From contig JACRGO010000164.1 of assembly GCA_016212295.1 (NCBI GenBank), forward strand, positions 1 through 40,545: DNA of 40,545 nt. Direction: 5' to 3'. The translations under genes and the position numbers were made by a program. Shown here piece after piece: positions 8,178 to 32,815 of the stretch. Position 1 is the stretch's first letter. Every line of letters begins with the position of its first letter. The notes under the pieces were generated by a model that did not search any database, had not been told where the DNA came from, and worked only from the letters and a program-made list of their open reading frames with translations. The DNA comes from Nitrospinota bacterium. GTDB taxonomy: Bacteria; Nitrospinota; Nitrospinia; JACRGO01.

Positions 8178-9260
8178 ATGAGCGAACTGCACACTAAACA
8201 AACGGTCCTGGTCGTGGACGATACGCCCGAAAATATTGATATATTGACCGAGACGCTCGATCCCTCTTACCGTACCAGGATAGCGACCAATGGCGAGAAG
8301 GCGCTTAAGATGGCCTTTTCCAACACGCCTCCGGATCTTATCCTGCTCGATATTATGATGCCCGGCATGAACGGATACGACGTATGCAAAAAGCTCAAGG
8401 AGAGCCAAAGCACACACGGTATTCCGGTGATCTTCATCACCGCCATGAACGAGGTGGCGGACGAGAAGAAAGGGCTGGAACTAGGGGCGGTGGACTACAT
8501 CACCAAGCCGATCAGTCCGGCAATCGTGCTGGCGCGAGTCAAGACCCATCTTGCGCTTTACGACCAGACGCGCCATCTGGAGAGCATGGTTGAACAGCGC
8601 ACCGCCGAGCTCGAAAAAACCCGGCACCAGATTATTCACCGCCTCGGCCGCGCTTCCGAATTCAAGGACAACGAAACAGGCAATCATGTCATCCGCATGA
8701 GTCATTATTCCCGCCTGATCGCTCAAGCCTTTGGATTGGGAGAAGAACCCGTCGATATACTGTTTAACGCCGCGCCGATGCATGATGTCGGCAAGATCGG
8801 CATCCCCGATAAAGTGCTGCTTAAGCCCGGCAAGCTCGACAATGCCGAATTGGAATCCATACGCAAGCATCCGGAAATGGGCGCGGAAATTATCGGAGAC
8901 CATCACGACATTCTGCTCAGGACCGCGCGCACCCTTGCGCTGACGCACCACGAAAAATGGGACGGCAGTGGTTATCCCAATAAGCTCAAGGGCGAGGAAA
9001 TCCCGCTGTTTGGACGGATTGTCGCCATCGCCGATGTTTTCGACGCCCTGACGTCAGAACGCCCTTACAAAAAGGCATGGCCTGTAAAGGAGGCGGCGCA
9101 TGAACTGGAAAAAAGCGCCGGCACGAATTTTGACCCTGGGCTGATTGGGCCTTTCAAGGCCGTGTTGCCTGAAATTATAAAAATAATAGAGCGATACGCT
9201 GATAAACACGGAGCATTGAATGACCTGGATTTTATCAAAGGACAGCAAAAGATATTTTAA
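8178..9260 (+). CDS. Response regulator with HD-GYP c-di-GMP phosphodiesterase domain
   Basis: 360 residues. Residues 8-125 are a receiver (DD at 14-15, phospho-acceptor D58 in LLDIMMPGMNG, K110). A coiled coil joins it to an HD-GYP domain at about 150-345, with HD at 202-203 (MHDVGKIGIP), HHEKWDGSGYP at 257-267 and the ADVFDALTS..PYKK block. HD-GYP proteins hydrolyse cyclic di-GMP; all metal-binding residues visible in these motifs are present, so it should be active. It follows the hybrid kinase on the same strand, suggesting the phosphorelay lowers c-di-GMP and so favours motility. The last 23 bp including the stop recur at 121-143. Confidence 0.9.
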   Translation: MSELHTKQTVLVVDDTPENIDILTETLDPSYRTRIATNGEKALKMAFSNTPPDLILLDIMMPGMNGYDVCKKLKESQSTHGIPVIFITAMNEVADEKKGLELGAVDYITKPISPAIVLARVKTHLALYDQTRHLESMVEQRTAELEKTRHQIIHRLGRASEFKDNETGNHVIRMSHYSRLIAQAFGLGEEPVDILFNAAPMHDVGKIGIPDKVLLKPGKLDNAELESIRKHPEMGAEIIGDHHDILLRTARTLALTHHEKWDGSGYPNKLKGEEIPLFGRIVAIADVFDALTSERPYKKAWPVKEAAHELEKSAGTNFDPGLIGPFKAVLPEIIKIIERYADKHGALNDLDFIKGQQKIF

Positions 9261-13130: not shown

Positions 13131-13746
13131 AAAATCCCGGACGGAAGCCCTTTAACTATAAAAGTTCACTACTAATGAACCAAAAATATAAAAACGCTGA
13201 ACAGTTACAAAAATATTTTTAAAAAGCCATGAAATGGCGATGCCCAAATAGCCCAGAAAGAACCAAGGGAAGACGCAAGCGCTAAGATTTTCCATGACTG
13301 AAAGGACGTCCTCTCTTGAATAAAAAGGATATGGCTCATCGGAATATATTGGAATACCTATGTCCTTAAATATTTGAAATTTAAAAAAAAGGCGCAATGT
13401 TTTTTCATTTACATTTACAAGGAAAAGGCGTATGGGGCGGTTTAACCACTAATTTACTTTTGGCATGAATGAGAGTAAAATCCGCACCAGTAAACAATTT
13501 AAAGCCTGCAAGGGCATTCACATCGATTTCAAGAGAGCCTGGCTGCTTTTGACCATGTGATGCCCGGCGTTAGGCGGCAGACCGGGCGGCCTTATGGGTG
13601 GCGAGGCGGAACTGCTACCGCCGAAATTTTCTTTTTAAACGCTCAACGCCGATTTTATTTCAAGCTGAAAACGAAAATTCCGGTTTAATCCTGCCCCCAA
13701 ATCCTTTGCTGTTGAAAATTTGGGGCATAGGCGAGGAGGTTTGGGC
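13131..13746. other. Gene-poor gap before the sigma-54 activator
   Basis: No gene can be supported with confidence. A minus-strand frame (13397-13152) codes a plausible membrane-like stretch (FPWFFLGYLGIAISWLF) but has only a TTG start and no RBS; it may be a fragment. A plus-strand 31-codon frame lies at 13465-13560. GGGCATTCACATCG and CATGTGATGCCC (about 13512-13563) are inverted with one bulged base and are followed by GGCGTTAGGC, which resembles half of an attC site on the plus strand. Confidence 0.35.
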
Positions 13747-15069
13747 ATGAAAACAGACGAATATCAGACCATCATGAATTCCGTGGCGGACGGCGTCTTC
13801 ACGGTGGACCTGCGGTGGCGGATCACTTCCTGGAACAGGGCCGCGGAGCGAATCACCGGCTTTTCGAAGGAAGAGGCCCTGGGCAGGCATTGTTACGACG
13901 TCTTCCGCGCCAATCTTTGCCAAACCGGATGCATCCTACGGCGTACCCTGGAAACCGGCAAGGAACTGATCAATATGGAGGTCACCATCGTCACCAAGGC
14001 GGGAGAGGAAAAGCCCATCAGCATCTCCACCGCCCTTCTCAAGGACCTGGAAGGGGGCAAGACCATCGGAGGAGTAGAGACCTTCCGCGACCTCTCCGCC
14101 ATAGAGAATCTGCGCAAGCGGCTCTCCGGAAGATATTCCTTCCAGGACATCATCGGGAAGAGCCATCCCATGCAGGAGATATTCCGCATCCTCCCCGACA
14201 TCGCGGAGAGCGAGAGCACGGCCCTCATTCAGGGGCCGACGGGGTCTGGCAAGGAACTCTTCGCCAAGGCGATCCATAATCTAAGCCCCAGAAAATCCGG
14301 CCCCTTTGTCACCGTGAATTGCGCGGCCCTGCCGGACACCCTGCTCGAGTCCGAACTCTTCGGATACCGCAAGGGGGCCTTCACGGACGCCACGCGGGAC
14401 AAGCCGGGCCGCTTTGCCCTGGCCGAGGGCGGGACCTTGTTTCTGGACGAGATAGGCGATATCTCCGCCGCCCTGCAGGCGAAGATATTGCGGGTCCTGC
14501 AGGAAAAGGCGTATGAACCTCTGGGGGGGACCCAATCGGTGAAGGCGGACGTCCGGATCATCGCGGCCACCAACCGGGACCTTCGCGAAGAGATGGCCCT
14601 GGGGCGTTTTCGGGACGATCTTTATTACCGGTTGAATATTATCCTTATTAACATCCCTCCATTGGCGGAACGTAAGGAAGATATACCTCTCTTAGTTGAC
14701 CATTTTATTTCTTATTTCAACGCGGAAAAGGGAAAGGAAATAAAAGGCATGAACCAGGAGGCCATGGAGGCCATGATGCATTACGATTTTCCGGGAAATA
14801 TACGGGAACTGGAAAACATCATCGAACGGGCCTTTATCCTCTGTAAAAAGGATGTCATTGATCTGGCGAGCCTTCCGCCGGAGTTGAAGTCTCTATCCAG
14901 GAATTATCAGGAGACAAGGCCGTCCTCGAACCCTTTAAAGACGGCGGAGGCGGAGGCCATCCGTTGCGCCCTGGCCGAACACGGGGGCCACCGGGAAAAG
15001 ACGGCCAAGGCCCTGGGGATTCATAAGACGACCCTTTTGCGGAAGATGAAACGGCTGGGGATTTCCTGA
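13747..15069 (+). CDS. PAS-domain sigma-54-dependent transcriptional activator
   Basis: 440 residues from the ATG at 13747, nine bases after GAGGAGG. Residues 5-115 are a PAS domain with three cysteines (C49, C58, C62 in RHCYDVF and NLCQTGC), a pattern that could hold a metal or sense redox. The AAA+ domain (about 133-360) has Walker A GPTGSGKE (163-170), GAFTDA (210-215, a natural variant of the sigma-54-contacting GAFTGA loop) and Walker B LFLDEIGD. The end is a Fis-type HTH (REKTAKALGIHKTTLLRKMK). A sigma-54 promoter lies 3.9 kb downstream before the NifX-like gene, with the cassette array and a toxin-antitoxin pair between; that operon is the probable target. Confidence 0.9.
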   Translation: MKTDEYQTIMNSVADGVFTVDLRWRITSWNRAAERITGFSKEEALGRHCYDVFRANLCQTGCILRRTLETGKELINMEVTIVTKAGEEKPISISTALLKDLEGGKTIGGVETFRDLSAIENLRKRLSGRYSFQDIIGKSHPMQEIFRILPDIAESESTALIQGPTGSGKELFAKAIHNLSPRKSGPFVTVNCAALPDTLLESELFGYRKGAFTDATRDKPGRFALAEGGTLFLDEIGDISAALQAKILRVLQEKAYEPLGGTQSVKADVRIIAATNRDLREEMALGRFRDDLYYRLNIILINIPPLAERKEDIPLLVDHFISYFNAEKGKEIKGMNQEAMEAMMHYDFPGNIRELENIIERAFILCKKDVIDLASLPPELKSLSRNYQETRPSSNPLKTAEAEAIRCALAEHGGHREKTAKALGIHKTTLLRKMKRLGIS

Positions 15070-17997: not shown

Positions 17998-18375
17998 TTA
18001 TTCCCAAAGGGCGTGTTTGTAATGCTTGAGGATCAAGGAATCCTTGGTGACCAGTCTGGATGAGTGAACGCGCGCCTGGGCCACTATAAGCCGGTCAAAG
18101 GGATCGCGGGTCCAATTCAGTCCGATCGCTTGCTTTATGACCTGGTCAAAGGGAAGTCCGCAAATTTTAAGTCCGACCCGTTTTGAAATATCCTGAAACA
18201 CCTTTTCTCCTCGCGCCGACACCCTGCCTGTTTCAAAAAGATATTGAAGCTCTAAAAGGACCATTGGAGAAATCAATAATTCTTCCCGCGACAATTCCCC
18301 TTGAATCTTTTCCGGAATAAGTTCAATCCTCCCGGCGTACATCCAGGCCACGATGTGGGTATCAAGGTAAATCAT
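17998..18375 (-). CDS. VapC-like PIN-domain toxin
   Basis: 125 residues with the PIN nuclease acidic residues in place: D5 (MIYLDTHIVAW), E42 (MVLLELQYLFE), D91 and D94 (NWTRDPFDRLIVAQA). The end LVTKDSLILKHY is also typical. PIN toxins cleave RNA, often tRNA or rRNA. The start lies inside the antitoxin frame (14-bp overlap), so they are translated together. It lies on the same strand as the neighbouring cassettes, but no attC is seen between them and it is treated as separate. Confidence 0.9.
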   Translation of the reverse strand: MIYLDTHIVAWMYAGRIELIPEKIQGELSREELLISPMVLLELQYLFETGRVSARGEKVFQDISKRVGLKICGLPFDQVIKQAIGLNWTRDPFDRLIVAQARVHSSRLVTKDSLILKHYKHALWE

Positions 18376-18598
18376 GGGATTCCCATTCCCTGGACCAGTC
18401 CATGTGGACTATTTCCTCAGGATCACATTTCAGGTAGGGCCTTTTTTTCAGATTGGCCAGTTTATTCGCTGGTTCCTCGGAGGATATCTTCAGCCTGCGG
18501 CCTTGGCGGTTGACCTCGATTGGGACGCCCGTCTCAAGGACCTTGTCCAGAATCCTGTAGATATCTTCCCTGAGTTTGGAAGGAGTCAGCGTTTTCAT
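18362..18598 (-). CDS. Phd/YefM-like antitoxin of the VapC pair
   Basis: 78 residues from the ATG at 18598: MKTLTPSKLREDIYRILDKV followed by TGVPIEVNRQGRRLKI. This is the Phd/YefM DNA-binding fold; the acidic C-terminal part (DPEEIVHMDWSREWESHD) would wrap the toxin. Upstream in-frame starts at 18607 and 18652 exist, but the promoter hexamers lie over them, which favours the last ATG. No ribosome site precedes it; the -10 ends seven bases before the ATG, so the message is predicted leaderless, as for tumE. Confidence 0.8.
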   Translation of the reverse strand: MKTLTPSKLREDIYRILDKVLETGVPIEVNRQGRRLKISSEEPANKLANLKKRPYLKCDPEEIVHMDWSREWESHDLP

Positions 18599-18634
18599 GA
18601 TATTCATAATAACACCCAACACGTACGTAATCAA
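18599..18634 (-). promoter_or_regulatory. Promoter and operator of the phd-vapC pair
   Basis: Minus-strand TTGATT (18634-18629) and TATTAT (18611-18606) are 17 bp apart, and seven bases separate the -10 from the ATG, exactly as in the tumEA promoter. The palindrome ACGTACGT (18621-18628) lies in the spacer and is the likely autorepressor site. Confidence 0.55.
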
Positions 18635-18963
18635 GTCAATGTCGTACGGCATTTTTCACTCGCCGAATCTGATAAACGGAATTCAGAATTCTGGAGTCAG
18701 AATTCAGAATGCCATCCATGCCCGCTGGGTTTTTCAAGGTTCAAAGTTCGATGTTGGATGTTCGATGTTCGGGCTCCAAACAGTTCCTTTGCCATTTGGA
18801 TTTTGAGCTTTGAAATTTAGGCCGTCTTTTATGGCGCAGGTAGCAGAAATGCTTCCTCGTCCTGTTTAAGCAGAGCAAAATCGCACCCACCCTCCCGCTT
18901 TCTCTGTCCACCATTGCCTTGCATCTCATTGAATTTACAGCTTCCATTGCCTAATCTCCCTCC
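18635..18963. other. Gene-free gap upstream of the sigma-54 promoter
   Basis: No gene is supported. It contains GAATTCAGAATTCTGGAGTC-type repeated words (about 18680-18712) and TTCGATGTT repeats (about 18745-18770). An activator site for the sigma-54 promoter would be expected here, but I cannot point to a convincing inverted repeat. Confidence 0.4.
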
Positions 18964-18990
18964 TGGCACGGCCTATGCTTTTCTATAGGG
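18964..18990 (+). promoter_or_regulatory. Sigma-54 (-24/-12) promoter of the cofactor operon
   Basis: TGGCACGGCCTATGCTTT has GG at 18965-18966 and GC at 18977-18978 with exactly ten bases between, and TGGCACG is a perfect -24 box. Predicted start is near 18990, giving a 17-base leader that contains only the GGGAGGGG ribosome site before the ATG at 19007. Confidence 0.8.
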
Positions 18991-19006
18991 TGGGAGGGGC
19001 AATTCA

Positions 19007-19348
19007 ATGCTACTCGGCATAACGACATTCGGGAAAAAAATATCCCCCCGCTTTGATTTTGCGTTAGGCCTGCTCCTGGTGGAGATCGAAGGGAGTGCAA
19101 TACTGAAACGTAAAGAGGAATCAATGGAAGGGATGCCCGGCGGGAAGCGGGTATCTTTCCTCGTTGCGCTGGGCGCGCAGGCTATTATTACCGGGGGGAT
19201 GCGGCGATGTGATTACCATGCCGCTCTCGATGCGGGATTGGAGGTCCATGCCGGATTCATGGGGGAGGTGGAGGAAAATTTGCGGCGGTATCTTTCCGGG
19301 ACCCTCCCCCGGTTTGGGCCGGGCATGAACCTTACGTTCAGGCATTGA
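19007..19348 (+). CDS. NifX/NifB-C-terminal-like cofactor-binding protein
   Basis: 113 residues. The pattern ITTFGKKISPRFDFALGLLL, then LGAQAIITGGMRR, and EVHAGFMGEVEENLRRYLSG is that of the dinitrogenase iron-molybdenum cofactor (NifX/NafY/NifB C-terminal) family, small carriers that hold iron-sulfur or Fe-Mo cofactor precursors. No nif structural genes are in view, and proteins of this kind are widespread in anaerobes that do not fix nitrogen. It is the first gene after a sigma-54 promoter and probably serves as the carrier of the operon. Confidence 0.85.
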   Translation: MLLGITTFGKKISPRFDFALGLLLVEIEGSAILKRKEESMEGMPGGKRVSFLVALGAQAIITGGMRRCDYHAALDAGLEVHAGFMGEVEENLRRYLSGTLPRFGPGMNLTFRH

Positions 19349-19377
19349 CTCAACACTTTTAAATGGAGGAGAGACTC

Positions 19378-19476
19378 ATGGATACCATGATTCCTGTTAT
19401 TGTGTTTGGTTCAACCGTTGTTTTAATCGCCATTTGGATTTATGCCTCTAAAAAAGAGGACAAGGAAAATAGGTGA
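19378..19476 (+). CDS. 32-residue single-pass membrane microprotein
   Basis: The frame ATGGATACC... has a perfect GGAGGAG ribosome site eight bases upstream. It encodes MDTMIPVIVFGSTVVLIAIW followed by IYASKKEDKENR: one membrane helix with a charged cytoplasmic tail, like CcoQ/CcoS-type or transporter-accessory microproteins. It is 29 bases from the NifX-like stop, and its stop overlaps a possible GTG start of the next gene, so it is firmly part of the operon. Function unknown. Confidence 0.75.
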   Translation: MDTMIPVIVFGSTVVLIAIWIYASKKEDKENR

Positions 19477-19481
19477 GAGCA

Positions 19482-19940
19482 ATGAGAAAAATAAATGTTC
19501 TTGCCGTATTGATGCCCATTTGTGTCCTTTGCCTTGCCGTTGATTCTTTCGCGCAAGGAAGAATGTGGGGTATAAGAGGCGGCGGCTGGGGACATGGGTC
19601 TCAATACTGCGCTATGTATGATACCCAGGCCGTCGAGACCATCTCCGGAAAAGTGATGAGCGTGGACAAGATCACCCCGATGCGGGGAATGAATTACGGC
19701 ATCCATCTGATGGTGAAGACGGAGAAAGAGGAAATTTCCGTGCATCTGGGGCCGGGGTGGTTTCTTGAAAACCAGGACATGGCCATTGAAACCAACGACC
19801 AGGTGGAAATAACTGGATCGAGAATCACCTATGAAGGAAAACCGGCCCTGATCGCCGCTGAGGTGAAAAAGGGCGGGAATGTCCTCGTCCTCAGGGACAA
19901 AAACGGCTTCCCTGCCTGGAGCGGATGGAGGAGGCGGTAA
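19482..19940 (+). CDS. Exported OB-fold-like protein
   Basis: 152 residues from the ATG at 19482 (AGGTGAG site; a GTG at 19473 overlaps the preceding stop). The signal peptide ends near SFA/Q. After a Gly-rich segment comes a single beta-rich domain, ETISGKVMSVDKITPMRGMN to ITGSRITYEGKPALIAAEVK, ending LVLRDKNGFPAWSGWRRR. Proteins with the same GPGWFLENQ and PAWSGWR features are common in sulfate and metal reducers, annotated only as hypothetical; the beta pattern resembles small OB-fold domains. Likely periplasmic and possibly a metal or cofactor binder working with the adjacent cytochrome. Confidence 0.7.
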   Translation: MRKINVLAVLMPICVLCLAVDSFAQGRMWGIRGGGWGHGSQYCAMYDTQAVETISGKVMSVDKITPMRGMNYGIHLMVKTEKEEISVHLGPGWFLENQDMAIETNDQVEITGSRITYEGKPALIAAEVKKGGNVLVLRDKNGFPAWSGWRRR

Positions 19941-19968
19941 TCCCCATAAGAAAGGAGGAGATGCGGCT

Positions 19969-20481
19969 ATGCTCGGAAAGAATTATTTATTTATAGGCTC
20001 TGTTGCTGGATTGTTTTTGACGTCGTTTCTATCAACGTCCGTCAGCTATCCCGAACCGGCAAGTTCCATCATAACCGGCAAGGCCCTTTATCGTTTGAAT
20101 TGCGCGAGATGCCACCAAGCGGACCGGAGCGGCTACGCTCCTTCTTATCCCCCATTGATAAATATCAAAGAAAAATTTTCCAAGGAGAGCATTATGGGAA
20201 GAATGGAAAAAGGCAAGGGGCGTATGCCTGCATTTCCTTATTTGTCCATGGCGGAAAAAGAGACCATAGTTTCCTTTCTTTTTGAAAAAGAGGGAGTGGA
20301 TGATGCGCTTTCGCCTGATGACAGGGCGAATATGATCATTAAAAGCCAGCGCTTATGCCGCCACGCCGTCCATAATCCGCATCCGCCTGTGCTTTGCCGA
20401 AGACGCATGGCTCACATGGACGCAGGCGTCCGGTGTTTTGCTGCCGGCGACCACTGCCTAGGCCCGGTGTGCGCAAAATAA
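19969..20481 (+). CDS. Exported class I cytochrome c with an atypical tail
   Basis: 170 residues from the ATG at 19969 (AAGGAGGAG site). After a signal or anchor helix (residues 5-25) a single haem site CARCH (45-49) and an axial Met candidate in GRMPAFPYLSMAEK define a class I cytochrome c ending near residue 108 (VSFLFEKEG). The remaining about 60 residues are rich in Cys, His and Arg (RLCRHAVHNPHPPVLCRRRM) and do not resemble a cytochrome domain, so the 3' part may be frameshifted or newly captured. A periplasmic electron carrier in a cofactor operon would fit a redox step during maturation. Confidence 0.7.
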   Translation: MLGKNYLFIGSVAGLFLTSFLSTSVSYPEPASSIITGKALYRLNCARCHQADRSGYAPSYPPLINIKEKFSKESIMGRMEKGKGRMPAFPYLSMAEKETIVSFLFEKEGVDDALSPDDRANMIIKSQRLCRHAVHNPHPPVLCRRRMAHMDAGVRCFAAGDHCLGPVCAK

Positions 20482-20548
20482 TGACGAGGAGAAGGGAATA
20501 GCGCTCGGAGCTTGTTGAATAGCAACCCTATTTTGAGGAGATGAAAAA

Positions 20549-21460
20549 ATGAACTGGATAGCCCTCATCCTTTTAATATGCCTGATTATTTTCGGCGTCG
20601 GATTTTTGATTGCCGACCTCTTCAGGACGAATAGCGAACTGAAGGCCGGCGCGGCCCAAAAAGGGAAGACCCGCATTAAAATCATCGGTGGCTGTGGAAA
20701 GGACGGAAGGCGGGAGCCCGTCGTCGAGGTGGACTTCGAGATGGGGACCATCGTCAGCATCGTGGGGCCCACCGGATCGGGAAAGACCGCCTTGATCAAC
20801 GACATAGAACTCTACGCCAACGGGAATACGCCCACGAAGCGAAAGGTCCTGATCAACGGGGTTTCCCCCTCCGACGAATTCAGCGGCGACCCTTCCCATA
20901 ACCCCATCGCCCTGATCACCCAGCACACCAATTTCCTGTCGGACCTTCCGGTGGAGAAATTCCTCTCCATGCACGCGAAAATCCGGCAAGGTGACGCCGG
21001 GGAGCCGATCGTGCAGGACACGCTCAACTTCGCCAATCAGCTCACGGGGGAGTCCATCAACCCCAGGGTGAAAATGACGGAACTCTCCGGTGGACAGACC
21101 CGCGCGCTTCTGATCGCCGACGCGGTGGTCATCGGGAACTCCTCCATTCTTCTATTGGACGAAATAGAAAACGCGGGGATCAACCGGACCAAGGCCCTGG
21201 ACATGTTGAAAAACTACGAGAAGATATTCATCTTCGTCACGCACGATCCCCGGATCGCGCTCTTGTCCGATTTCCGGATCGTCATGAAGAACGGCGCCAT
21301 GCGGGAGATCATCAAGACCGACGAGCAGGAAAGAGAGGTGTTCGAGGAGATCAGGAAAATCGACGATCTCATTCTGGACTTCCGGCAGAAGATCAGAGAG
21401 GGGGAACGCATCGCGAAATACGAATTGGATGAAAGGATAGATGCCCTGAAGGTGGGCTGA
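20549..21460 (+). CDS. Membrane-anchored single ABC ATPase
   Basis: 303 residues with a GAGGAG site. Residues 4-24 are a membrane helix (ALILLICLIIFGVGFLIA). The ATPase has Walker A GPTGSGKT (about 73-80), a Q-loop (ALITQHTNF), the signature LSGGQTR, Walker B SILLLDEIEN and the switch HD (FVTHDPRI). After it a helical tail (about 250-300) follows. There is no permease, and a lone ABC ATPase tied directly to the membrane is unusual; such soluble-type ATPases (for example AtwA/SufC-like) often drive cofactor assembly or enzyme activation rather than transport. It is followed by a GTPase and an iron-sulfur protein. Confidence 0.8.
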   Translation: MNWIALILLICLIIFGVGFLIADLFRTNSELKAGAAQKGKTRIKIIGGCGKDGRREPVVEVDFEMGTIVSIVGPTGSGKTALINDIELYANGNTPTKRKVLINGVSPSDEFSGDPSHNPIALITQHTNFLSDLPVEKFLSMHAKIRQGDAGEPIVQDTLNFANQLTGESINPRVKMTELSGGQTRALLIADAVVIGNSSILLLDEIENAGINRTKALDMLKNYEKIFIFVTHDPRIALLSDFRIVMKNGAMREIIKTDEQEREVFEEIRKIDDLILDFRQKIREGERIAKYELDERIDALKVG

Positions 21461-21466
21461 GGAGAT

Positions 21467-21588
21467 AAAAATACCAAATGACAAACATCAAATCCCAAAT
21501 AAGTTCCAAAAACAAAATATCAAATTAAGCCTTTCGATATTGTAATTTGGAATTTATTTGAAATTTGTGATTTGAGGTTTGGTATTTT
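21467..21588. repeat. Long AT-rich hairpin inside the cofactor operon
   Basis: The left arm begins AAAATACCAAA and contains CAAATCCCAAATAA and TTCCAAA; the right arm (about 21546-21588) is its near-complete inverse and ends TTTGGTATTTT. It could act as a transcription or mRNA stability element between the ABC ATPase and GTPase genes, but similar AAATTTG hairpins occur elsewhere in the window, so it is probably a resident repeat. Confidence 0.7.
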
Positions 21589-21621
21589 CAGTTCCGGTCA
21601 TGCCTGCTTAGGGAGAAAAAA

Positions 21622-22323
21622 ATGAAGCTCATTATATGCGCGGGACCGCCCACCAGCGGGAAGACCACTGTGATCCGGCAGGCGATGCGCCGCTTGGTCT
21701 CCAAGGGCCACAAGCCGGCCTTTCTGAAGGTGGACGTGCAATACGCGGACGAGGACGAAATAATGAAGGCGGAGTTCCGGATACCGGCCCGGAAGGTGTA
21801 TTCGGGGGACCTGTGTCCCGACCACTGCACCGTGCTGGTCCTGGGGGAGGCGGTGAAGTGGGCGGAGGGGGAAAATTGCGGCATGCTCATAGTGGAAACC
21901 GCCGGACTCTGCCTGCGGTGCGCCCCTTATATCAAGGGTTCCCTGGGCGTGGCGGTCCTGGAGGCCACGAGCGGTATCAATCTCCCCAAAAAACTCGGCC
22001 CCATCCTGTCCCTGGCCAACATGGCCATAGTCACCAAGATAGACCTCGTGTCCCAAGCCGAGCGGGAGGTCTTTCTTTCCAATATTCTGGATGTGGCGCG
22101 GGTGGGGGTCATCGAGACGGACGCCCTTCACGGGATCAACATCGACCGCCTGGTCCAGAAGATCGAGGAGGCGGAGGAGATTCAAGGACCCCTGGAACTA
22201 AAAGGGAACCCTCCACTGGGCACGTGCACCATCTGCGTGGGGAAAAAGGAGATCGGCTGGAAGGGGCATTTCGGCATTGTGCGGTCCCTGGACTCGCCGG
22301 ACCTCTTTTATCGCGGTGAATGA
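21622..22323 (+). CDS. HypB/CobW-like P-loop GTPase with cysteine motifs
   Basis: 233 residues, GGGAG site. Walker A GPPTSGKTT (8-16), a switch-like VETAGLCLRC (91-100) and a guanine-specificity TKID (138-141) put it among G3E/SIMIBI GTPases such as HypB, which loads nickel into hydrogenases. Cysteines C65 and C69 (GDLCPDHC), C97 and C100 (GLCLRC) and a C-terminal GTCTICVGKKEIGW pair are candidate metal or cluster ligands. It overlaps the next gene region closely (two-base gap). Most likely it delivers or gates a metal for a client enzyme; the client is not known. Confidence 0.8.
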   Translation: MKLIICAGPPTSGKTTVIRQAMRRLVSKGHKPAFLKVDVQYADEDEIMKAEFRIPARKVYSGDLCPDHCTVLVLGEAVKWAEGENCGMLIVETAGLCLRCAPYIKGSLGVAVLEATSGINLPKKLGPILSLANMAIVTKIDLVSQAEREVFLSNILDVARVGVIETDALHGINIDRLVQKIEEAEEIQGPLELKGNPPLGTCTICVGKKEIGWKGHFGIVRSLDSPDLFYRGE

Positions 22324-22324
22324 A

Positions 22325-23014
22325 ATGAAATCCTTGACGGAAATTTTGCGCATGTTTGAGGGGCCAGGACCCGGGGACGCCGGGGCCATCCTTGAAAAAC
22401 TGCCCGGCAAGGATTGCGGGATCTGCGGTTTTTCCACGTGCAGGGAATTCGCGGGGATGGTTTTGGAAAAACCAGAGGCCATGGGCAGGTGTATTTTTCT
22501 GGGAAAGCCGGAAGGCTCTCCGGTCGTGGAAGAACATGAAAGGGAAAATATCCCCTGGAAAGACATCCTCGGTAGGGAATACGATTTTATCCTGGACCGG
22601 TTCCCCAACGAACCGGGTCCGAGGGAAACCATCCTGCCCTTCAATCCCGCCAATGTTGAAAAACTTCAAATCAAGAAAGGCTACGTTTTATACGGACGCC
22701 CCGCCTGGGCGGGATGTCCGGTCACCCACTGCGGAGTGGTGATGGAACCCCCGGATTACTTCAACGGCCTGATTGAGTGGTGCGTCGTCGGCCCCCTGGA
22801 GGCCAGGGAAAGGGGGATACATATCGGGCATTACAATCCCATCGCCTATGAAGGTTTGGCGTTGTGTGCGAACAAGGATCTGCAATTCGGACGGAGGTAT
22901 TATTTCCTGCCGAGGTACTGCATGCTCCAGGCGCGGCATTCGGGGGTCCTCAATATGCTGGTGAAGACAAGCGAGGGGACGCGCGCCCGCCTGGAAGGAA
23001 TCATGTTGGGTTGA
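22325..23014 (+). CDS. 4Fe-4S protein with conserved uncharacterised C-terminal domain
   Basis: 229 residues. The N-terminus has KLPGKDCGICGFSTCREFAG (C31, C34, C39) and RCIF (C56), the Cx2Cx4C...C cluster seen in corrinoid iron-sulfur proteins and reductive activators. The C-terminal domain (about 100-229) contains GRPAWAGCPVTHCGVV, YNPIAYEGLALC and GRRYYFLPRYCMLQARHSGV, a conserved-looking block that I recall from uncharacterised proteins of methanogens and anaerobes but cannot name. It starts directly after the GTPase stop, so the two are co-translated. It could be the cluster donor or electron donor of the maturation system. Confidence 0.75.
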   Translation: MKSLTEILRMFEGPGPGDAGAILEKLPGKDCGICGFSTCREFAGMVLEKPEAMGRCIFLGKPEGSPVVEEHERENIPWKDILGREYDFILDRFPNEPGPRETILPFNPANVEKLQIKKGYVLYGRPAWAGCPVTHCGVVMEPPDYFNGLIEWCVVGPLEARERGIHIGHYNPIAYEGLALCANKDLQFGRRYYFLPRYCMLQARHSGVLNMLVKTSEGTRARLEGIMLG

Positions 23015-31327: not shown

Positions 31328-32722
31328 TTACAAAATCTCCCTTTTAAAACCGATCTTCTTCATTATCCTGTAAATAGTCATCCTCGGTATTCCTGAAATC
31401 TCCGAGGCGCGGGTTATGTTGCCTTCCGACTTTTTCAGCAGATTTTCCATGTATCCCTTGTCAAAAACATCCAAATACCTTTTCTTCGCCTCATGGTAAT
31501 TCAGCTCGTCGAATTCAAGAGGCCGGGCTGCCGCTGGTGCGCCGGATCCACCGGAAATGTTTTCCGGGAGGTCCTCAACCCCTATGCCGTTGCCGCCTGC
31601 GAAGGAAGCGGCCCTTTCAAGGCAATTTTGCAGCTCTCTTATATTGCCCGGCCAGGGATAGGCTTTGAGCCTGTCCATGGCTTCCCTGGAAACGGCCAGG
31701 ACCGGCAAGCTGTGGGACCCGGCGTACTTTTTCAGAATGGAATCGCAAAGCAGAGGTATGTCCTCGGCCCTCTCCCGAAGCGGCGGGAGGGTGATTGAAA
31801 TCACGTTGAGCCGGAAATAAAGCTCCTCGCGGAATTTCTTCTCTTCAATGCATTTACGCAGGTCCCGGTTCGTGGCTGAGATTATCCTGATGTCGAGGTC
31901 GATCTCCTTGCGGCCCCCGACCTTGCGGATTTTCCGCTCCTGCAGCACGCGGAGCAGCTTGGACTGCAGGTCCATCCCCAACTCAGCTATCTCGTCAAGG
32001 AACAGGGTCCCGGTGTTGGCGGTTTCAAAAATACCCTCCCTTGAAATATGCGCGCCCGTAAAGGACCCCTTCTCGTGTCCGAATAGCTCCGATTCTATGA
32101 GGGTCTCAGGCAAGGCCGCGCAGTCTAACGGCACGAAGGGCCGTCCCAAGCGGCGGCTGTTGGCGTGGATTGAGTGCGCGATCAATTCCTTCCCTGTGCC
32201 GCTCTCTCCCAGGATCAGGACGTTTGAATGGGTCCCGGCGATTTTTTTAATTGTTTCAATGACATTTTTTATCCCCTGGCTCCGTCCTATGATATTGTCG
32301 AAGCAAAAATTATCGGAAAGTTGTTTTTTGAGGGCGCGGTTTTCCCTGGCCAGATCAATGGTCTTAAGAGCCCGGTCTATGGAGTGCTTCAACTGGTCGG
32401 AGGTGAAGGGCTTGGGAAGATAGTCGAAGGCGCCCTCCCTGATGGCCTCAACCGCTGATTCTATGGACCCGAAGGCGGTAAAAATTATGACGGCCAGATC
32501 CGGATGCCTTTTCTTAACCTGATGGAGGAACTCAATACCGCCCATGCCGGGCATTTTTAGATCGGACAGCGCCAGCGCGGGCGATTCTTCCCCGATAATC
32601 CTCAGGGCCTCCTCTCCATTCGGAGCGGTGATGGGGGAATAGCCCATGGCGCGGAGGAGCCGGGCGCAGTTCTCCAGCATGTCTTCCTCGTCATCCACCA
32701 GGAGAATGCGGTCTTTTTTCAT
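31328..32722 (-). CDS. NtrC-family sigma-54 response regulator
   Basis: 464 residues from the ATG at 32722 (TGAGGAA site; the longer reading adds non-family residues). Receiver (RILLVDDEEDM, phospho-acceptor D in LALSDLKMPGMGG, K), AAA+ domain with GESGTGKE, GSFTGA (variant of GAFTGA), Walker B LFLDEIAE, and a Fis-type HTH (ITRASEISGIPRMTIYRIMK). Next to fliW, csrA and the flagellar genes it may be the FlrC/FlgR-like activator of flagellar sigma-54 promoters, though its kinase is not in the window. Convergent with mqnE. Confidence 0.9.
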   Translation of the reverse strand: MKKDRILLVDDEEDMLENCARLLRAMGYSPITAPNGEEALRIIGEESPALALSDLKMPGMGGIEFLHQVKKRHPDLAVIIFTAFGSIESAVEAIREGAFDYLPKPFTSDQLKHSIDRALKTIDLARENRALKKQLSDNFCFDNIIGRSQGIKNVIETIKKIAGTHSNVLILGESGTGKELIAHSIHANSRRLGRPFVPLDCAALPETLIESELFGHEKGSFTGAHISREGIFETANTGTLFLDEIAELGMDLQSKLLRVLQERKIRKVGGRKEIDLDIRIISATNRDLRKCIEEKKFREELYFRLNVISITLPPLRERAEDIPLLCDSILKKYAGSHSLPVLAVSREAMDRLKAYPWPGNIRELQNCLERAASFAGGNGIGVEDLPENISGGSGAPAAARPLEFDELNYHEAKKRYLDVFDKGYMENLLKKSEGNITRASEISGIPRMTIYRIMKKIGFKREIL

Positions 32723-32744
32723 GAAACCATTCCTCAATAAATTA

Positions 32745-32815
32745 GCCGCCAAGGACGCGAAGCCACGCAAAGTTTTTTGTTTTCTTAGCGGTCCTTGGCA
32801 TACTTCGCGGTTTTC
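32745..32815. repeat. GCCAAGGACGCGAAG hairpin
   Basis: GCCGCCAAGGACGCGAAGCC and GGTCCTTGGCATACTTCGCGG are imperfect inverted copies around a TTTTTTGTTTTC loop. It belongs to the CACAAAG/CGCGAAG repeat family seen at several other gaps and separates the regulator gene from fliW. Confidence 0.6.

Follow-up and report, generated by a model that had tools for sequence, protein, structure and literature searches.

A probably horizontally mobile ABC ATPase, UreG/HypB-like GTPase, and 4Fe-4S protein trio and its probable insertion into a resident cytochrome operon of a Nitrospinota bacterium, with a possible role in sulfur-incorporating enzymes

We analyzed a stretch of 40,545 nucleotides from a Nitrospinota bacterium (GenBank assembly GCA_016212295.1, contig JACRGO010000164.1; “the window” hereafter means this whole stretch), in which seven open reading frames (ORFs) on the same strand span positions 19007-23014. 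A first-pass annotation made from the sequence alone had placed the seven ORFs correctly, all in one direction, and had read them as a single operon for metallocofactor maturation. This single seven-gene system is not what we find: the conserved unit is the last three genes, which encode an ABC ATPase, a GTPase, and a 4Fe-4S protein (hereafter, the trio). These three genes are linked in bacteria and archaea and are absent from the remainder of the window’s phylum. Our best explanation, which we hold tentatively and place just short of probable, is that the trio is a module driven by nucleoside triphosphates (NTPs) that loads a metal or Fe-S center for sulfur-incorporating enzymes, and that it is horizontally mobile and was inserted here into a resident operon for an exported cytochrome. 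The three genes are as follows:

20642..21460, + strand: trio gene 1, a soluble-type ABC ATPase core fused to a resident membrane segment (41-65% identity, 39 homologs)
21622..22323, + strand: trio gene 2, a G3E-type GTPase, UreG/HypB-like (by sequence, profile matches, and predicted fold)
22325..23014, + strand: trio gene 3, a 4Fe-4S protein of 229 amino acids (PF04060; invariant Cys/His)

Using the GTPase as a query against one genome per species (84,980 species), we recovered 50 trio loci. They come from Planctomycetes, Schekmanbacteria, Syntrophaceae, Acidobacteria, Verrucomicrobia, Chloroflexi, Omnitrophota, Clostridia, Methanosarcina, Methanoregulaceae, Methanocella, and Thermoplasmata. 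The ABC ATPase, GTPase, and Fe-S protein genes are together and co-linear in 46 of the 50 loci, bacterial and archaeal, and the other four (L003, L009, L043, L051) end at contig ends; the Methanosarcina loci (L020-L022, L024, L026, L028, L035) contain the same three homologs as the window. The first-pass annotation had proposed to examine exactly this neighborhood, and the trio did not prove to be unlinked in relatives. In a phylogenetic tree, the window GTPase falls in a clade whose members come from many phyla (support 0.997), and none of 76 other genomes of the window’s phylum has the trio. Because of this mixing and this absence, spread by horizontal transfer is the simplest reading. Two contigs are probably misbinned, as their GTPases nest in Methanosarcina (L023, labeled “Nitrospirae”) and in Clostridia (L036, labeled “Desulfovibrio”); this affects the phylum counts and not the linkage.

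The genes upstream of the trio have a different history, which we read from the window and from a same-genus genome (G001, 99% complete) that does not have the trio. The five upstream features are:

19007..19348, + strand: NifX/NafY-like (Nitro_FeMo-Co) protein, 113 amino acids (PF02579), outside the conserved trio
19378..19476, + strand: single-helix membrane protein of 32 amino acids (by sequence)
19482..19940, + strand: exported OB-like protein of 152 amino acids, a resident gene common with G001 (weak MamS/MamX similarity)
19969..20481, + strand: exported mono-heme cytochrome c, a resident gene common with G001 (PF13442)
20549..20641, + strand: resident transmembrane segment of ~ 31 codons, now the N-terminus of the ABC ATPase (local DNA alignment to G001)

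No NifX-like, OB-like, or cytochrome homolog occurs at any of the 50 trio loci, and G001 has the OB-like and cytochrome part without the trio; on these grounds we rejected a seven-gene system. The proposal in the annotation that the NifX-like protein belongs to the machine as its cofactor carrier is likewise not supported. Its match to the Nitro_FeMo-Co Pfam family is a marginal pass (28.5 bits, cut-off 26.3), the 32-residue membrane protein matched no family above cut-off in scans of profile libraries, and the label “OB-like” is based only on a weak, sub-cut-off similarity to the magnetosome proteins MamS/MamX. The window genome has a second, partial OB-like homolog on contig C174 (L091, about 8835-9044; 64% over 70 amino acids).

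On the G001 comparison contig (C94), the OB-like gene is 75% identical to that of the window over 111 amino acids, the cytochrome c is 55% identical over its first 105 amino acids, and the first 31 residues of the next ORF are 61% identical to the membrane N-terminus of the window ATPase. Past residue 31, the G001 ORF runs into a DUF4920 exported protein, which is followed by a PepSY-TM-like gene. At the DNA level, homology between the two genomes extends from the ribosome site to about codon 31, ending near 20638 (local alignment score 88, null maximum 30), with none beyond it (score 27, null maximum 32). Around the point where the ATPase core would be expected to begin, the window has no ATG, GTG, or TTG, and the fusion product is therefore the likely protein. 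A hydrophobic N-terminal segment comparable to that of the window is present in none of the other 47 ATPases (in L050, one of those compared, the open frame also takes in ComA). Because the homology to G001 ends at about codon 31 and the anchor is missing in the other ATPases, the “membrane-anchored ABC ATPase” of the annotation is an in-frame fusion of a resident segment to an inserted ATPase: the anchor is present in the window but is unique to it and not normal for the family. As the trio is absent in the remaining phylum and the ATPase is unfused elsewhere, we favor insertion into the window lineage over loss in G001, although two genomes cannot prove the direction. The resident genes common to the window and G001 support the contig being genuine. 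The last ~ 60 residues of the window cytochrome c are unlike the same-genus homolog and resemble read-through of former intergenic sequence.

Judged by its sequence, the trio GTPase is a G3E GTPase that resembles the nickel chaperones and is neither HypB nor UreG. It passes the cobW/HypB/UreG family PF02492 (37.4 bits, cut-off 20.7), and its profile matches include UreG (4hi0, E 2e-9) and HypB (2hf8, E 3e-9). Its predicted fold (model pLDDT 81, with the last 37 residues uncertain) has its nearest match in the K. pneumoniae UreG structure bound to GMPPNP and nickel (5xkt; Z 23.2 over 184 residues) and matches HypB 2hf8 at Z 21.3. The P-loop is present, the guanine-specificity motif T138-K139-x-D141 (TKID) is invariant, and so are C65-P-D-H68, C97, C100, C202, C205, and H216. 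C65-P-D-H68 aligns at the metal-ligand region of UreG (CPH) and HypB (CH), and C97, within a GLCxRC motif, is near the third HypB ligand; C100, C202, C205, and H216 are invariant additions. The “HypB-like” label of the annotation is thus borne out by sequence, by predicted fold, and by the conservation of putative metal-ligand positions. In contrast to true UreG and HypB, however, the protein does not reach the equivalog models of HypB (TIGR00073; 38.0 bits, cut-off 121.2) or UreG (TIGR00101; 19.7 bits, cut-off 204.2), has an extra invariant CxxC (C202/C205) and H216 at its C-terminus, and is encoded with other partner genes.

A GTPase of this class and predicted fold would suit a trio that matures a known nickel enzyme (NiFe-hydrogenase, CODH/acetyl-CoA synthase, or LarA), standing in for or aiding HypB, CooC/AcsF, or LarC, much as the first-pass annotation had suggested in proposing nickel or Fe-Mo enzyme maturation. 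Many trio genomes are indeed those of anaerobes with such enzymes, including the window genome, whose NiFe-hydrogenase-family genes lie on other contigs. However, among 30 trio genomes, most of them metagenome-assembled genomes (MAGs), NiFe-hydrogenase-family proteins are present in 23, acetyl-CoA synthase in 13, and LarA in 16. Missing from 7, 17, and 14 genomes, respectively, these enzymes were rejected as obligatory clients, so that looking for a co-occurring metalloenzyme, as the annotation had advised, gave no obligatory one among the nickel enzymes tested. Two genomes (those of loci L029 and L034, both MAGs) lack all three, and none of the enzymes was recognized beside the trio among the neighbors read. 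What survives of the earlier proposal is the nickel-chaperone kind of the GTPase; the proposal itself is weakened by the genomes that lack nickel enzymes and by neighbors that point to sulfur incorporation, and we regard maturation of a known nickel enzyme as improbable.

Those neighbors differ among lineages. In Methanosarcina, a HcyBio-family (MMP16-like) gene is directly downstream of the trio, often with ThiI next, and a radical SAM gene is upstream. In several clostridial loci, ComA and ComB are directly upstream. Four loci (Schekmanbacteria, Syntrophaceae, a deltaproteobacterium, and Opitutia) carry an IscS cysteine desulfurase between the GTPase and the Fe-S gene, and two of these four also have an Rrf2 regulator upstream. 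Elsewhere, MetY, MetA, CysE, sulfate adenylyltransferase, and a binding-protein transporter are found near the trio. Chadwick et al. 2025 (PMC12068725, Fig. 2B) already noted that the trio adjoins coenzyme M genes in several orders of methanogens, without assigning it a role; “undescribed”, the word used in the annotation, thus fits only in part. By description, their three-gene set is the same as ours, and the Methanosarcina loci adjoin a HcyBio-family gene as in the paper, whereas the window copy, that of a bacterium, lacks coenzyme M and HcyBio neighbors and has its ATPase fused to a membrane segment. For the COG1900 enzymes of coenzyme M and homocysteine synthesis (MMP16/L-ASST), the same paper leaves open both the sulfur donor and how the reaction proceeds.

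Counts of such neighbors fit with a link between the trio and sulfur incorporation. At least one of 12 sulfur-related families is found within 4.5 kb of the trio in 24 of the 50 loci, at a density of 0.16 per kb compared with 0.03 per kb at 4.5-10.5 kb, but this enrichment is descriptive rather than a test, because the families were picked once the genes close to the trio had been inspected and because many loci are related to one another (Methanosarcina, Pelotomaculum). In line with the counts, 6 of 13 trio genomes in one clostridial class have ComA no farther than ~ 8 kb from the trio; HcyBio and ComA are near-universal in this class, and their mere co-occurrence with the trio is consequently uninformative. 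Other observations weigh against the link. No sulfur enzyme is universal: HcyBio is present in 38 of 51 trio genomes, for which reason COG1900/HcyBio was rejected as the obligatory client, and it is absent in the window genome and in the trio genomes of Planctomycetes, Schekmanbacteria, Acidobacteria, and Heliophilum. The neighborhood of the trio in the window has no recognized sulfur gene, nor did we recognize coenzyme M or MMP16 genes anywhere in the window. Finally, we found no biochemical or genetic data for any trio member.

The N-terminus of the Fe-S protein matches the 4Fe-4S cluster domain of the corrinoid Fe-S protein. The match to PF04060 is supported by Pfam, in line with the annotation, and the identity to the N-terminal domain of the large subunit (CdhE/AcsC) is 24-29% over 49 residues. 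Unlike CdhE/AcsC, the trio protein has no TIM barrel or corrinoid domain and instead has a different, beta-rich C-terminal domain, in which C131, H135, C199, and H205 are invariant. The fold of this domain had no convincing match (best Foldseek E 0.22; best VIA Z 5.5, with unrelated folds), and a MOSC-like reading, which we considered, was without support. From the gene order and the legend in PMC12068725, the protein is probably the family named COG2000 there.

The ABC ATPase has complete motifs and is supported by Pfam as ABC_tran; outside the window, the trio ATPases are soluble-type. As its top database matches are generic transporter ATPases, one could suppose that it serves an importer of a metal or sulfur compound encoded elsewhere, with the GTPase and the Fe-S protein receiving the imported ion. 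A paralogous GTPase-ABC pair that adjoins a FecCD permease and a binding protein fits with this idea. On the other hand, no permease was recognized in any trio operon among the 50 loci, and the trio ATPases outside the window have no clear membrane segment of their own; we regard such an importer, with its permease at a distance from the trio, as improbable. The annotation had pointed to pairing of the ATPase with a known permease as evidence against its reading; this pairing was seen for that one paralogous pair and not for the trio.

The paralogous pairs belong to the same clostridial class (that of G107; loci L069-L080) and are without the Fe-S protein; their GTPases are 35-40% identical to that of the window. 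They are followed by DUF364 (“putative heavy-metal chelation”), a family whose genome context links it to metal transport and chelation (PMC2954201), or lie amid binding proteins and transporters. Because they carry DUF364 or transporter genes in place of the Fe-S protein, the GTPase-ABC pair gives the impression of an engine for metal handling whose third component can be swapped. These pairs may themselves constitute an undescribed metal-handling cassette.

The metal-handling contexts also bear on another possibility, in which the trio is a sulfur relay or sulfide supply: the Fe-S protein would carry or reduce sulfur from a cysteine desulfurase or sulfide to the COG1900 aldehyde sulfurtransferases, MetY, and similar acceptors, with the two NTPases gating the transfer. 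The IscS genes inside four operons, the sulfur-acceptor genes at other loci, and the question left open in the literature about the MMP16/L-ASST sulfur donor all speak for such a relay. However, it leaves no obvious part for a GTPase of the UreG/HypB-like kind whose metal ligands are conserved, and the paralogous pairs occur in metal and transport contexts without sulfur genes. We consider the relay rather unlikely, while giving it more weight than nickel-enzyme maturation or an importer.

If the trio is instead the loading module that we favor, the GTPase would, like UreG and HypB, bind a metal ion through its conserved Cys/His residues and pass it on when GTP is hydrolyzed. The Fe-S protein would hold or transfer the center through its 4Fe-4S cluster and the second, C-terminal Cys/His set. 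The ABC ATPase would power assembly or transfer in the manner of SufC in Fe-S assembly rather than act as a pump. The client would be an enzyme, or a sulfur carrier, that takes part in incorporating sulfur under anaerobic conditions, such as coenzyme M or homocysteine thiol formation or the use of sulfur derived from cysteine desulfurase. The soluble ABC ATPase, together with the cysteine desulfurase and Rrf2 regulator of some trio operons, recalls the SUF/ISC systems (SufC, SufS/IscS, IscR), whereas no SufB/SufD or IscU-type scaffold was recognized among the trio neighbors and the trio has a G3E GTPase. A bolder version of this proposal, which we offer as a speculation with clearly less confidence, is that the trio builds or installs an undescribed metal-sulfur center (nickel or another metal, on an Fe-S protein) that helps anaerobes to insert sulfur into small molecules, the synthesis of coenzyme M and homocysteine included. 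Horizontally spread across bacteria and archaea, it would share with its paralogs a general metal-loading engine, the GTPase-ABC pair, whose third partner is exchanged (the Fe-S protein in the trio; DUF364 or a transporter in the paralogs).

Two further features may bear on expression of the window operon:

18964..18979, + strand: sigma-54-type -24/-12 promoter-like site TGGCACGGCCTATGCT (one mismatch to TGGCACGNNNNTTGCW; predicted start near 18990)
21461..21595: AT-rich imperfect inverted repeat in the ATPase-GTPase spacer (arms of ~ 50 nt, 76% complementary, 35 nt apart)

The near-perfect -24/-12 site and 17-base leader of the first-pass annotation are both there. The site has the correct GG-N10-GC spacing and one mismatch to the pattern tested, TGGCAC(G)-N-TTGC, and is the best site and the only one with < 2 mismatches in a scan of the window. 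A slightly relaxed pattern, WTGCW (TGGCACGNNNNWTGCW), has three exact matches in the 3.74 Mb genome, this site among them, and one-mismatch sites number 26 genome-wide versus 14 with a reversed control, a modest excess of about twofold. A sigma-54 promoter is plausible here on this sequence evidence, and transcription would start near 18990, leaving a 17-nt leader with a purine-rich ribosome site (GGGAGGGG) upstream of the ATG at 19007. By sequence, the window also has two genes for sigma-54-dependent activators with an AAA+ domain and a Fis-type helix-turn-helix (HTH), at 13720-15069 (+) and 31328-32770 (-); the first, which has a PAS domain and lies ~ 4 kb upstream, could regulate the site. 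Direct and inverted repeats (GAATTCAGAATTCTG / CAGAATTCAGAAT) at 18679-18713, ~ 250 bp upstream of the site, could be an activator site or chance. Just upstream of the operon, on the minus strand at 17998-18652, we noted by eye a VapC-like PIN-type toxin gene and a small Phd-like partner. The inverted repeat in the spacer is single-copy in the window; it may represent a mobile or repeat element, and it may influence co-transcription.

The window copy illustrates one route by which a lineage can acquire such a module: in-frame fusion to a resident membrane gene. More broadly, the trio is a concrete candidate for the COG1900 sulfur question, as this NTPase-FeS module adjoins the COG1900 genes in methanogens and other sulfur-assimilation genes in bacteria without them. 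We know of no nickel-chaperone-like GTPase in anaerobic sulfur metabolism; if our reading of the trio is true, it would add one.

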